64,000 bases of DNA from Thermocrinis jamiesonii (GTDB lineage: Bacteria > Aquificota > Aquificia > Aquificales > Aquificaceae): the NCBI RefSeq assembly GCF_000702425.1, contig NZ_JNIE01000002.1:1-64000 (forward strand), in the 5' to 3' direction. The notes beneath the pieces were generated by a model. It worked only from the letters and a program-made list of their open reading frames with translations, was not told the DNA's origin and did no database searches. A program made the translations under genes and the position numbers. Below, one piece after another: positions 49,783-54,985 of this stretch. Each line of letters starts with the position of its first letter. Positions within the stretch are counted from its first letter, which is position 1.

Positions 49783-49833
49783 CTTATAAGTTTTGCTTAT
49801 CTTCTCCATAAGATAAGCTTATGATTGTATAAG
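49783..49833 (+). promoter_or_regulatory. Cluster of CTTAT/ATAAG half-sites with a perfect hairpin upstream of the Soe-type operon
   Basis: Contains the palindrome CTTATAAG (49783-49790), a 9-bp perfect stem GCTTATCTT/AAGATAAGC with loop CTCCAT (49795-49818), an overlapping palindrome ATAAGCTTAT (49813-49822) and TATAAG (49828-49833). It lies 60-110 bases before the soeA ATG. It may be an operator or an RNA structure. There is no U-run for termination. Confidence 0.45.
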
Positions 49834-49893: not shown

Positions 49894-52737
49894 ATGGATG
49901 TAGGTGGAAGCTTTTATGACAGAAAAGCGTACAGCACTTGTTATATGTGTGCCTGCAGGTGTGGGATAGAGGTATATATCAGAAACAACAAAGTTACTTA
50001 CATAAAGGGGAACGATGCGCATCCTACTAACAAAGGTGTTTTGTGTGCAAAAGGTTCTTCTGGTATTATGAAAGAATACAGTCCTGCAAGGCTCAGAAAG
50101 CCTCTGCTTAGGGTAGGTCCAAGAGGTTCTGGTAAGTTCAAGGAAATAGAGTGGGAAGAGGCGCTGCAAATAGCAGTGCAGTGGTTAGAGGAAGCTCGTA
50201 AAAAAGGACCATACAAGATAGCCTTCTTTACCGGAAGGGATCAAATGCAACAGATAAACAGCTGGTTTGCAAGCCAGTTGGGAACTGTAAATTGGGCAGC
50301 TCACGGTGGATTTTGCTCTGTAAATATCGCCGCCGCAGGTCTTTACTCCATAGGTGGTTCCTTTTGGGAATTTGGAGAAGCAGATTTTGAAAACACTAAA
50401 TACTTTATGCTCGTGGGTGTGGCAGAAGACCACTCTTCCAATCCGTTTAAGCTTGGCATTCAGGAGATGAAGCGCAAGGGTGGGAAATTTGTAGTCGTCA
50501 ATCCTGTAAGATGGGGCTATGGTGCGATAGCAGACGAGTGGATCCCAATAAAACCTGGCACAGATGGAGCATTTTTCCTTGGTTTAATGCACGTGCTGTT
50601 TAAGTATAACTTGGTGAATTGGGAGTTTCTTAAAGAATACACCAACGCAAGCTGGCTTGTAATTCAAGCACCAGGAACCTCAAAGGATGGACTCTTTTAC
50701 AGAAACCAAGAAGGAAAACCTATGGTTTTTGACAAGAAAAGTCAGAGCTTTAAGCCTGCGGATAGGATAGTGCCAGACGATTTGGATCCAGCTTTCATCG
50801 GAGAGTTCAAAACACCAGAGGGATATACTGTAAGACCAGCCTTTGACATATTCGCAGAAAGACTTGTAAAAGATTATTCGCCAGAAAAGGTGGAAAAGAT
50901 AACAGGCATTCCTGCAAAGGACATAGAGCGTATAGCCAAAGAGATGGGCACAATAGCGTTGTATCATCCTATAGAACTTCCCATTGAATGGACCGACGTT
51001 TGGGGAAGAAAGCACAAAAAGGTTGTTGGAAGGCCAGTATCCTTCCACATTATGAGGGGTATAGCTTCCCACAGCAATGGCTTTCAGACCGCAAGGGCTG
51101 TTTTCTTGCTTATGATGATGTTGGGCGTGGTGGATGTGCCCGGAGGATTTCTCAATAAGCCCCCCTATCCAAAACACATAGAAGATCTTCCCAAACCTTA
51201 CAAGATTACAAGGCCAGACGAGATAAAGTACGGAGAAATCTATCCTGGACCTCACCTTGGTTATGTTCAAAACCCGGACGATCTCTTGGTGGATGAAAAA
51301 GGAAACCCAGTAAGAATAGACTGGGCTTACAGCTGGTGGTTCCCAATGACAGCTCACGGACTAATTCAAAACGTGATCCCTGCAGCCTATCAGCAAAACC
51401 CTTACGGAATAGAAGTTTTGATGATCTACATGGCAAACATGGCTTGGAACTCGTCCCAGAACATTCCTTACATCATAGAAGCCCTGACTGCCACAGACCC
51501 TGCGGGCAACTACATAATACCAAAGATCATTACCATAGATGCTTTCTACAGCGAACAGGTTGCTTATTCGGATTTAGTCTTGCCAGATGCTACATACCTT
51601 GAGCAGTGGTTTGCGTTGTCTTTGCTTGACAGACCACCTTCTGCAGTAGATGGTCCAGTAGATGCGCTGAGACACCCCATCGTAGATCCCAAACAAAACG
51701 GCTACGATGTGATGGGTTGGGGGGATATAATGGTAGAACTTGGCTCAAGGCTGAAACTTCCCGGCTTTGTAAATCCAGACGGTTCAAGAAAATACAAGGA
51801 CTTTAAGGATTTTCTTATAAATTGGCAGATAAGACCGGGTGTGGGTGCCCTTGCGGGATGGAGGGGTAAAAACGGAGACAAACACTTTGTAGGAGAGCCC
51901 AACCCTAAGCAATTGGAAATGTACATCAAAAACAAGGGATTTTTCTACTACAAACTTCCGGACAACATGAGATATTACAGACACGTAAATAAGGACTACC
52001 AGGAATGGGCGGTTGGTGTTGGTTTCCTAAAGAAGGTAGCCCCAATAGTGTTTAACTTTTACCTTGAATCCCTTCAAACCTTTAGACTTGCAGGTCAGGG
52101 ACTTTGGGAAGGTAAAAATCAACCACCGAACGACCCAATCCTCAGAGAAAGACTTATTAAATACTTTGATCCCCTTCCTTTCTGGTATCCGCCCTTTGAA
52201 GAAGAAGTTTCCGGAAAAGACTATCCACTTTATGCCTTTACCCAAAGGCCCCAGTGGATGTATCACTCTTGGGACTCTCAAAATGCATGGTTAAGACAGA
52301 TATCCACAAGAAATTACCTTTACATGAATCCAAAGACCGCAGAAAAACTCGGTATAAAACACTTAGATTGGGTATGGGTTGAGTCAAGAATAGGAAAGGT
52401 TAAGTGTCAAGTATTCCTAACAAACACCACAGAACCCAATTCAGTTTGGACCTGGAACGCCATAGGTAAAATGAAAGGTGCTTGGGGTTTAAAGCCAGAG
52501 GCAGAAGAAGGTCATCAAGGCTTTCTGCTGAACCATGTGATACCTCACAGCATCAACATTGGAGGAAGGGAGATCTATTATGGAGACCCAATAACTGGAC
52601 ACTTGGCGTGGTTTGACACAAAGGTAAAGGTCTATAAAGCAGAGGATCAAACGCCAGAAACTTATCCACAGTTTGAAATAGAACCATTAGATTATATAAA
52701 GGAAAGATGGGTAGAGGTTTTAAGGTATAAACCATGA
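49894..52737 (+). CDS. soeA: Molybdopterin oxidoreductase catalytic subunit, SoeA-like (sulfite dehydrogenase)
   Basis: 947 residues of the DMSO-reductase family. The N-terminal 4Fe-4S ligands are Cys 16, 19, 23 and 51 (CYMCACRC and VLCAKG). HGGFCSVN near residue 141 offers a cysteine as likely molybdenum ligand. MGD-binding segments follow to the C terminus (NPKTAEKLGIKHLDWVWVES). Length, lack of a clear Tat signal and the SoeB/DmsC-like partners fit cytoplasmic sulfite:quinone oxidoreductase SoeABC; polysulfide or sulfur reductase is the alternative. AGGAGG 8 bases upstream decides ATG 49894. It overlaps the Uma2 gene by 4 bp. Confidence 0.72.
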   Translation: MDVGGSFYDRKAYSTCYMCACRCGIEVYIRNNKVTYIKGNDAHPTNKGVLCAKGSSGIMKEYSPARLRKPLLRVGPRGSGKFKEIEWEEALQIAVQWLEEARKKGPYKIAFFTGRDQMQQINSWFASQLGTVNWAAHGGFCSVNIAAAGLYSIGGSFWEFGEADFENTKYFMLVGVAEDHSSNPFKLGIQEMKRKGGKFVVVNPVRWGYGAIADEWIPIKPGTDGAFFLGLMHVLFKYNLVNWEFLKEYTNASWLVIQAPGTSKDGLFYRNQEGKPMVFDKKSQSFKPADRIVPDDLDPAFIGEFKTPEGYTVRPAFDIFAERLVKDYSPEKVEKITGIPAKDIERIAKEMGTIALYHPIELPIEWTDVWGRKHKKVVGRPVSFHIMRGIASHSNGFQTARAVFLLMMMLGVVDVPGGFLNKPPYPKHIEDLPKPYKITRPDEIKYGEIYPGPHLGYVQNPDDLLVDEKGNPVRIDWAYSWWFPMTAHGLIQNVIPAAYQQNPYGIEVLMIYMANMAWNSSQNIPYIIEALTATDPAGNYIIPKIITIDAFYSEQVAYSDLVLPDATYLEQWFALSLLDRPPSAVDGPVDALRHPIVDPKQNGYDVMGWGDIMVELGSRLKLPGFVNPDGSRKYKDFKDFLINWQIRPGVGALAGWRGKNGDKHFVGEPNPKQLEMYIKNKGFFYYKLPDNMRYYRHVNKDYQEWAVGVGFLKKVAPIVFNFYLESLQTFRLAGQGLWEGKNQPPNDPILRERLIKYFDPLPFWYPPFEEEVSGKDYPLYAFTQRPQWMYHSWDSQNAWLRQISTRNYLYMNPKTAEKLGIKHLDWVWVESRIGKVKCQVFLTNTTEPNSVWTWNAIGKMKGAWGLKPEAEEGHQGFLLNHVIPHSINIGGREIYYGDPITGHLAWFDTKVKVYKAEDQTPETYPQFEIEPLDYIKERWVEVLRYKP

Positions 52738-53267
52738 TAGGAACAAAGAAAACAGTAAAAGACTACATGGAACTCCCAGAAGGGGCACCTTATCAACTAA
52801 TTGAGGGAGAACTTGTTATGAGCCCTGCACCAGGATATAGTCATCAAAATACCTTAGGAAACCTTTTTATCATCCTTAGGACAAGACTAAAAGACGCCCA
52901 AGTTATTCTGTCTCCCATAGATGTTTATCTTGACGAAGAGAATGCTTATCAGCCAGATTTAGTGGTAGTTTTAAAAGACAGCAAAGCAAAGGTAGAAGAA
53001 AGGGGCATATTTGGAGCGCCCGATGTGGTGGTGGAGATTCTTTCTCCTTCCACTGCCTATTATGACCTTACGGAGAAAAAAGATGTTTATGAAAGGGTAG
53101 GTGTAAAGGAATACTGGATAGTGGATCCAAAAAGAAAAACCTTTGAAATATACTCAAACTCAGAGGAAGGGTTTAAACTCACTTCTCAGGCTAAAAAAGA
53201 TGGAAAAGTCAGGTCCGAGCTTCTTGGCTTAGAAATAGACCTTAAGGAACTCTTTGAGGAGGTTTGA
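52734..53267 (+). CDS. Uma2-family PD-(D/E)XK nuclease-like protein
   Basis: 177 residues with the Uma2 (DUF820) pattern: YQLIEGELVMSPAPGYSHQ, the core YQPDLVVV (Asp), VVVEILSPSTAYYD (Glu) and KKDVYERVGVKEYWIVDP (Lys). The fold is restriction-endonuclease-like, and the putative catalytic residues appear intact. Its cellular role is unknown; the family is abundant in cyanobacteria. It is coupled to soeA by an ATGA overlap and supplies the Shine-Dalgarno (GAGGAGG) of soeB within its own end, so it is fully embedded in the operon. Confidence 0.85.
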   Translation: MIGTKKTVKDYMELPEGAPYQLIEGELVMSPAPGYSHQNTLGNLFIILRTRLKDAQVILSPIDVYLDEENAYQPDLVVVLKDSKAKVEERGIFGAPDVVVEILSPSTAYYDLTEKKDVYERVGVKEYWIVDPKRKTFEIYSNSEEGFKLTSQAKKDGKVRSELLGLEIDLKELFEEV

Positions 53268-53269
53268 TC

Positions 53270-53968
53270 ATGCCACAGTATGCTTTGGTGATAGACCTAA
53301 ACACCTGTGTGGGCTGTCATGCTTGTGCTACAAACTGCAAAGAATGGAACACACAGGCGTCTTTTGGACCCCTTTCGGACTTTGATCCGTATGGAAGAAA
53401 TCCCGAAGGGGTATGGTATAACAGGATAATGACTTATGAAGTGGGAGAGTTTCCAGACACTCAGGTTTTCCATCTTCCCAAATCCTGTCTTCACTGTCAG
53501 AATGCGCCCTGTGTGCCTGTATGCCCCACCGGTGCAAGTTATAAGAGGGAACAGGATGGTATAGTGCTGGTAAATTACGATGACTGCATAGGATGTAAGC
53601 TCTGCTCTTGGGCTTGTCCCTACGGCTGTAGAGAGTTTGACGAAGCGGATAAAGTGATGAAAAAATGCACCCTTTGTATAGACAGAATATACGATGAATC
53701 ACTACCACCAGAGCACAGAAAACCCGCATGCGTTTTGACTTGTCCCGCAAAGGCAAGGTTCTTTGGTGATATAGAAGACCCCAACAGCGAAGCTTACAAA
53801 ATGATCAAAGAAAGGAATGGCTTTGTATTGTTTCCAGACATGGGAACCAATCCAGCTAATCATTACCTGCCAAGAACGGAAACTAAAATTCACATAGATG
53901 AACACCTGTTAAAGCCCGAAAATCCTATGTTCCTTGAAGTGCTAAGAAGACACTACAAAGGAGGTTAA
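53270..53968 (+). CDS. soeB: Four-cluster ferredoxin-type electron transfer subunit, SoeB-like
   Basis: 232 residues from ATG 53270, preferred because GGAGG lies 7-8 bases before it. Four Cys-rich motifs for 4Fe-4S clusters are visible: CVGCHACATNC, CLHCQNAPCVPVCPTGA, CIGCKLCSWACPYGC and CTLCID with ACVLTCPAKA. This is the DmsB/PsrB/SoeB layout, relaying electrons between the molybdenum subunit and the membrane anchor. No signal peptide. Ends 3 bp before soeC. Confidence 0.8.
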   Translation: MPQYALVIDLNTCVGCHACATNCKEWNTQASFGPLSDFDPYGRNPEGVWYNRIMTYEVGEFPDTQVFHLPKSCLHCQNAPCVPVCPTGASYKREQDGIVLVNYDDCIGCKLCSWACPYGCREFDEADKVMKKCTLCIDRIYDESLPPEHRKPACVLTCPAKARFFGDIEDPNSEAYKMIKERNGFVLFPDMGTNPANHYLPRTETKIHIDEHLLKPENPMFLEVLRRHYKGG

Positions 53969-53971
53969 AAG

Positions 53972-54985
53972 ATGCATCCAGCCCTATCTCTGATCTTTTT
54001 CTTCCTTACCGCAGGAACGTCCATAGGTCTTTTTACCTTTACTTACTTTATGGAGTTTCTCACGCTTTTTGGAAAGCAGACTGGCCTTCCAAAACACATG
54101 GTCCTTATCTCAAACATAATATCTCTGATTCTTATTGGACTTGGAGCCATAGGAGCAAGCTTTCACCTTGGACACAAACTAAGGGCATGGAAAGCAATAA
54201 AGAGGTTCAGAACCTCTTGGCTTTCTCGGGAAGCAGTCTTTAGCGGAACCTACGGATTCACACTCTTTATATTTACTGTGCTTAGATTCTTTGATCAAAC
54301 AGGCTTTTGGTATCACCTATTTGGTGTGATAACCTTCATTCTTGGATGGTTAAGTGCTTATTCCACCGCAATGATATACGCATCCAACAGGTTTGTTCCA
54401 GAGTGGAATACCTCTTTAACAGTGCTTTACTATCTGAACATGTATTTAATGCTTGGTTCTTCTGCCTTCCTGTCCTTGACCTATTTTTACAGAAAAGAAT
54501 TTGTGGGCACCTTTTTGTTCCTTGCGGTGCTGTTTCTTTCTTTGGGACTTGCATTTAGGCTTGCGTTCAACATCAGACAATTTTACTTAGACAGACCAAC
54601 CATAAACGAAGCACTGAACCTTCCCCACAACAGACCAATAAGAGTTTTGGATACAGGCACCACCACCGAAAACTACTGCACAAAGGAATTTTACTACAAA
54701 AAAGGAAAGGAGCTTCTCCCCAGCGTCTTACCCATAGCTTACATCCTCACCTTTGTGGTGCCCCTTTTCCTTTTACTCTATGCGTGGATATCTGGGAATA
54801 TAAACTACAACTTTGTAAAGTTTGCCTTCCTGTCTTTGGTAGTGGGAAGTTTTCTAGAAAGGTGGTCCTTTTTTGTGGAAGGAAATCATGTGCAAAACCT
54901 TTTCTACGGTCTTTATCCTAAGGAAGGCTATACCCTCAGAAAAGGCTTTATGGAAAGAAAAAGAACAAAGATCTCTTACAGATAA
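53972..54985 (+). CDS. soeC: Membrane anchor subunit, SoeC/DmsC-like
   Basis: 337 residues with about eight membrane segments. The stretch FHLGHKLRAWKAIKRFRTSW followed by LSREAV is typical of DmsC/SoeC-type anchors, as is the HPALSLIFFFLTAGTS start; these exchange electrons with quinone. AGGAGG overlaps the soeB end. An intrinsic terminator follows. Distinction from a PsrC/NrfD anchor rests on these motifs only. Confidence 0.75.
   Translation: MHPALSLIFFFLTAGTSIGLFTFTYFMEFLTLFGKQTGLPKHMVLISNIISLILIGLGAIGASFHLGHKLRAWKAIKRFRTSWLSREAVFSGTYGFTLFIFTVLRFFDQTGFWYHLFGVITFILGWLSAYSTAMIYASNRFVPEWNTSLTVLYYLNMYLMLGSSAFLSLTYFYRKEFVGTFLFLAVLFLSLGLAFRLAFNIRQFYLDRPTINEALNLPHNRPIRVLDTGTTTENYCTKEFYYKKGKELLPSVLPIAYILTFVVPLFLLLYAWISGNINYNFVKFAFLSLVVGSFLERWSFFVEGNHVQNLFYGLYPKEGYTLRKGFMERKRTKISYR

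Follow-up and report, generated by a model that had tools for sequence, protein, structure and literature searches.

The locus analysed here is a run of genes on the forward strand of the window, by which we mean the whole stretch of 64,000 nucleotides of Thermocrinis jamiesonii DNA that was studied. The first gene, at 49894..52737, encodes a soeA-like molybdopterin oxidoreductase with the Pfam domains Molybdopterin, Molybdop_Fe4S4 and Molydop_binding. Its open reading frame opens with a TTG at 49825; the most likely start is the ATG at 49894, which gives a protein of 947 aa, and relatives of the same length begin at the same methionine. It is followed by a gene of the Uma2/DUF820 PD-(D/E)XK nuclease family at 52734..53267 (177 aa; PF05685, 1.5e-32), by a gene for a soeB-like 4Fe-4S protein at 53270..53968 (Pfam Fer4_11 and others), and by a gene for a soeC-like membrane anchor of the DmsC type at 53972..54985 (PF04976, 222.7 bits). 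With a molybdopterin subunit, a 4Fe-4S subunit and a membrane anchor encoded together, the host operon is of the SoeABC/Psr type by Pfam, and sulfite is its putative substrate. The initial annotation had described an intact Uma2-type gene inside a molybdoenzyme operon, and the open reading frame, the PF05685 match and the Pfam-typed flanking genes all agree with this description.

The uma2 gene is connected with both of its neighbours. Its ATG at 52734 and the soeA stop codon (TGA, 52735-52737) form an ATGA overlap at 52734..52737, as expected from the coupling to soeA that had been claimed, and an (A/G)TGA overlap is also present at the filled junctions of relatives. The uma2 stop codon occupies 53265-53267 and the soeB ATG lies at 53270. 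The motif GAGGAGGT at 53256..53263, which is situated in the last uma2 codons and six bases ahead of the soeB ATG, is the likely Shine-Dalgarno sequence of soeB, in line with the earlier statement that uma2 supplies the soeB ribosome binding site. Nothing except Uma2 was found in the soeA-soeB gap of the window, with no adjacent antitoxin gene and no gene of the CZB type, and no other Uma2 gene was found in the 1.3-Mb genome.

Fold and candidate active site of the Uma2 protein

The PF05685 profile matched the Uma2 protein of the window with 112.9 bits against a cut-off of 27, over positions 2-168 of 172. The structure predicted by AlphaFold has a pLDDT of 94.8, and Foldseek matched this predicted structure to the solved Uma2 structure 6okh with a TM of 0.90 and an E of 4e-22, which indicates the same fold. 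The protein was also matched by the PADLOC model PDC-S03 (9.4e-43), which denotes a candidate defence class and is not proof of a defence role.

Seven active-site candidates, H37, D63, D75, E101, D111, K115 and K116, are unchanged in 33 of the 33 intact copies from soeA-soeB junctions, and H37, D63, D75, E101, D111 and K115 are all invariant in a cross-phylum alignment; the PD-(D/E)XK residues had been described as intact, and they are. H37 is encoded at 52842..52844, D75 of a QPD motif (the PD of PD-(D/E)XK) at 52956..52958, E101 of a VVEILS motif at 53034..53036, and the pair K115-K116, which lies in the next helix and probably holds a displaced catalytic lysine, at 53076..53081. Judged from these residues, the protein is a member of the PD-(D/E)XK superfamily, with D75, E101 and K115 as the conserved D, E and K, and we infer K115 to be the catalytic lysine. 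One copy at a soeA-soeB junction (genome G056) carries an in-frame TGA. In the frame of Uma2, pN is well below pS between genomes, and by this measure the part of the frame flanking the variable helix described below is under purifying selection.

Uma2 slots at operon junctions

To survey the soe operons of Aquificota for the insertion, as had been suggested, SoeA matches across 136 genomes of the phylum were compared with Uma2 matches. The soeA-soeB junction was readable in 38 operons, of which 22 are filled and 16 empty, and some close relatives are among the empty ones. The filled junctions hold 1, 2, 3 or 5 tandem Uma2 genes. A single Uma2 gene is present in the window and in L080-L083, L090, L091, L101 and L069, two are present in L065 and L072, three in L064 and five in L071. 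Eight further slots (L062, L063, L066-L068, L070, L075 and L097) combine one or two Uma2 genes with one or two CZB-type genes of about 130 aa. The initial annotation had named, as the finding that would speak against it, a gene absent from all sister operons and bearing inactivating changes, hence a recent neutral insertion; 22 of the 38 junctions are filled and the residues are kept, and the gene is not such an insertion.

Genes of the CZB zinc-binding type are the commonest companion of Uma2 and accompany it in nine soe slots, L076 among them. One of these proteins passes the Pfam CZB threshold (35.8 versus 29.4 bits) and another falls just below it (26.2). A stand-alone protein of this chemoreceptor zinc-binding type is an odd presence in a sulfite dehydrogenase operon. 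In L076 (genome G029) a TnpB-like ORF of 547 aa, named by eye, lies between the CZB gene and soeB, so the soe slot accepts insertion-sequence genes too. L064 also contains a divergent Uma2 gene (L064:2949-3464, + strand), which immediately precedes a moeA-like gene and is oriented opposite to the soe operon.

At an empty junction the soeB start follows the soeA stop codon at a distance of roughly 14-19 bases, which include the ribosome binding site, and at most empty sites AAGGAGGT, which is similar to GAGGAGGT, stands right after the soeA stop. The filled junctions of L080-L083 end in AAGGAGGTGCTGTG-ATG, which is identical to the empty junction of their close relative L086 and differs by one base from the equivalent in L087. 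In L080-L083 the AAGGAGGTGCTGTG bases double as codons for the last Uma2 residues. Since AAGGAGGTGCTGTG-ATG is retained in these filled junctions, the insert has left the downstream start intact.

When the filled and empty states were placed on a tree of SoeA+SoeB, 8 changes were counted against a shuffled mean of about 11.7. Slots of the same state thus group together on this tree, and occupancy has been gained or lost repeatedly. In a Uma2 C-terminal tree, which is weakly resolved, with a short alignment and many weak forks, a single clade unites the copies that belong to the second SoeA lineage (L080-L083, L090, L091 and L101). From these trees, the copies in soe slots seem, for the most part, to have been inherited where they stand. 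The SoeA of the window shares up to 95-96% identity with its relatives and the Uma2 73% at most, which points to a faster turnover of the passenger than of its host genes.

Uma2 genes were also found at other operon junctions of the lineage, where the neighbours, named from their protein sequences, are taken to be korD, korE and korA (2-oxoglutarate:ferredoxin oxidoreductase), nuo, thi, suc, serA, tpx, feoB, gcvPB and aspS. Some follow korD, korE or korA tightly or stand between these genes, and others lie at the junction of nuoCD and nuoH, between nuoH and the next gene, between thiS and thiG, between sucC and sucD, and tightly behind serA, tpx, feoB, gcvPB and aspS. Each of the main slots has its own Uma2 sequence signature, except that tpx and serA share one. 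Among the 134 Uma2 genes whose upstream neighbour could be read, 115 have a same-strand gene at most 30 bases upstream, a figure that counts orthologous slots repeatedly, versus 424 of 799 other genes at the same loci (p=8e-14). Collapsed to slot types, 17 of 35 are tight; those that recur in at least two loci are tight (for tpx, at one of its two loci), unlike most of the types seen once. Outside Aquificota no excess of this operon position was detected (28/76 versus 125/354). Operon junctions are thus recurrent Uma2 slots in the Aquificaceae lineage as far as these genomes go, and not a family-wide rule. On the same two counts, the absence of an excess outside Aquificota and the 17 tight types among 35, a general targeting of operons by the Uma2 family is not claimed. 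There was no sign of a phage-borne origin either, Uma2 matches being few and distant in viral contigs (7), phage (1) and plasmids (42).

The variable helix alpha-A

Comparison of paralogues within the arrays revealed a hypervariable cassette, which in the window gene covers aa 34-57 (52833..52904), or about aa 35-55, and corresponds to helix alpha-A; the helix predicted by AlphaFold over the cassette spans aa 35-51. Within arrays the cassette has diverged at the DNA level and the flanks are near-identical. For copies 1-4 of L071, nucleotide identity is 89-93% before the segment aa 34-64, 45-62% inside it and 88-94% after it, and synonymous change is strongly raised in the segment. The L071 cassettes are 86-98% identical to their counterparts in a second genome (L064). 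Where paralogues have the same amino acid, the codons differ at 52% of positions in the helix segment and at 20% of those in the frame (p=2e-7, with pairs that are not independent), and for cassettes of the same type between genomes the codons differ at 9% in the segment versus 17% in the frame. Conservation of types between genomes together with synonymous divergence between paralogues indicates that discrete types are set into a shared frame, a mosaic that is best accounted for by recombination between paralogues. Relaxed constraint was considered as the source of the helix variation and is disfavoured because synonymous sites have diverged too and cassettes of the same type are conserved.

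The same divergent-helix pattern was observed in the kor, tpx/serA and nuo arrays, and the best pair of a Leptospiraceae trio (L209) gave 0.99/0.61/0.97. In a WOR-3 genome with about 30 Uma2 copies the helices are divergent in 40 of 42 frame-matched pairs, and the correlation between helix identity and frame identity is not significant (Mantel r=0.11; 562 of 5000 permutations as high). An exception is L115, which holds adjacent pairs with identical helices. Positions 40, 44, 48 and 52 of the protein remain hydrophobic and positions 39, 42, 45-47, 49 and 50 are the most variable, as would be expected of an amphipathic helix with one buried and one exposed face.

A role of the helix in targeting the slot is disfavoured, because one slot holds different helices and slot identity tracks the frame. 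Cassettes common to very different frames amount to only two pairs, so long-range swapping is not shown by them. The helix cassettes of L143 (Aquificaceae, behind feoB) and L192 (WOR-3) are 77% alike in frames that are only 60% identical, and this likeness across phyla possibly reflects long-range cassette exchange or convergence.

Interpretation and relation to known systems

On balance, we consider that the embedded gene probably encodes a passenger nuclease which rides the operon, with a specificity set by its helix and a probable role in genetic conflict. The sequences show that the soeA-soeB junction is a variable slot, either empty or occupied by 1-5 Uma2 genes in tandem, of which the first begins inside the soeA stop. 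The 3' end of the last copy, where nothing follows it, carries the soeB ribosome binding site, an arrangement that leaves the reading of the operon undisturbed. The catalytic residues are conserved, the paralogues are mosaics of a common framework and an exchangeable alpha-A helix, and other Uma2 subfamilies occupy other core-operon junctions. Uma2 would not be part of the sulfite dehydrogenase; the indispensable operon would supply expression and guard the passenger against loss. The helix alpha-A would set recognition of a partner, an inhibitor or a nucleic acid, and the role would be in genetic conflict (defence against phages or mobile elements, or a solo toxin) rather than in sulfur metabolism. 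This reading is favoured by the variable slot, the slots in other core operons, the invariant residues, the low pN relative to pS between genomes, the mosaic helix, the PDC-S03 match and the position of the Aquifex aeolicus protein aq_1194 outside the PFOR enzyme. Counting against it are the standing of PDC-S03 as a candidate class only, the apparent, largely in-place inheritance of the soe-slot copies, the 17 tight slots of 35 and the lack of enrichment outside Aquificota. More tentatively, we suggest that Uma2 arrays could be modular repertoires of a constant frame and recombined alpha-A specificity helices, which Aquificaceae would keep and express at the junctions of respiratory and carbon-fixation operons. 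No activity, target or phage phenotype was found for any Uma2 protein in the open-access literature.

An unlikely alternative is that Uma2 is a selfish free-standing homing endonuclease, which cuts empty junctions and spreads via gene conversion as the seg/mob genes of T4 do (PMC2988022). It would account for exact insertion at conserved gene junctions present or absent among relatives (22 filled, 16 empty), for the patchy occupancy with its 8 changes on the SoeA+SoeB tree, and for the slot-specific subfamilies. However, copies at the same junction carry very different helices, in tandems of up to five, the second SoeA lineage has its copies in one clade as in-place inheritance predicts, and the changes in occupancy are clustered and not scattered on the tree. 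Quite improbable, in our opinion, is an addiction function, by which a Uma2 toxin prevents loss of the operon. Uma2 has been called a likely solo toxin that forms cassettes of paralogues (PMC2701414), and a stabilising role has been proposed for the toxin-antitoxin genes of the Synechocystis hox operon hoxEFUYH, which contains the DUF820 protein Sll1222 (PMC4963859), but the slot of the window has no antitoxin gene and lacks the CZB companion, and the frequent empty slots imply that loss is tolerated. A neutral hitch-hiker without function, which the patchy occupancy and the G056 copy with its in-frame TGA might suggest, is very improbable given that the catalytic residues are invariant in the 33 intact copies, pN is far below pS and cassette types are conserved across genomes. 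That Uma2 assists the assembly of the sulfite dehydrogenase, as had also been proposed, or its maturation, or that it is one of the subunits, is very improbable in spite of the coupling of uma2 between soeA and soeB and an occupancy that persists across genera, as 16 of the 38 readable operons, those of close relatives included, do without Uma2, the same family occurs in many unrelated operons (kor, nuo, thi, feoB and serA slots), the predicted fold is that of a nuclease, and Uma2 is absent from the PFOR complex of A. aeolicus (PMC10052474).

If Uma2 is a passenger with a swappable helix, the helix offers a concrete handle on Uma2 recognition, since it indicates the residues that should be exchanged and the change that should follow. 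The nuclease genes in soe, PFOR and hox oxidoreductase operons may then be one phenomenon rather than separate puzzles, and such slots caution against equating operon membership with function.

Uma2 has been described as a family without an assigned function that is strongly expanded in Thermus and in cyanobacteria (PMC1274311). In Thermoanaerobacterium saccharolyticum LL1686 the Uma2 gene Tsac_2318 shows 20 clustered variants at 36-45% after laboratory strain construction (PMC6997586); in our interpretation, which the authors do not offer, these resemble gene conversion between paralogues, although they may instead result from mis-mapped reads, and we take them only as a lead. Uma2 genes within oxidoreductase operons have been reported before in two isolated cases. 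The gene aq_1194 is like that of the window in lying between ferredoxin oxidoreductase subunit genes of a related bacterium, and unlike it in being a single case in a different operon, whose product was reported to be probably outside the complex (PMC10052474). This product was hardly or not detected by proteomics, and the band of active enzyme lacked it, so that in the nearest tested case the initial assumption of a protein made stoichiometrically with the enzyme is contradicted. Sll1222 similarly has its gene within the operon of an oxidoreductase, where it stands between hoxEF and hoxUY, whereas it is cyanobacterial, has a toxin-antitoxin pair alongside and has no array described (PMC4963859). 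The free-standing homing endonucleases of T4 resemble the slots in that a nuclease gene (mobE) lies between nrdA and nrdB and is patchy among relatives; they differ in belonging to the HNH and GIY-YIG families, in that cleavage has been shown for several of them, and in having no tandem helix-swapped arrays (PMC2988022). The known family that the window protein matches, in near-full-length profile, fold and active-site residues, is Uma2/DUF820 (PF05685, COG4636; PDB 6okh, 9y1l, 3ot2 and 1wdj). No description of helix cassettes or of a slot survey was found in the open-access literature, and relative to the described family the additions made here are the swappable helix alpha-A and the recurrent junction slots, which have Uma2 subfamilies of their own.
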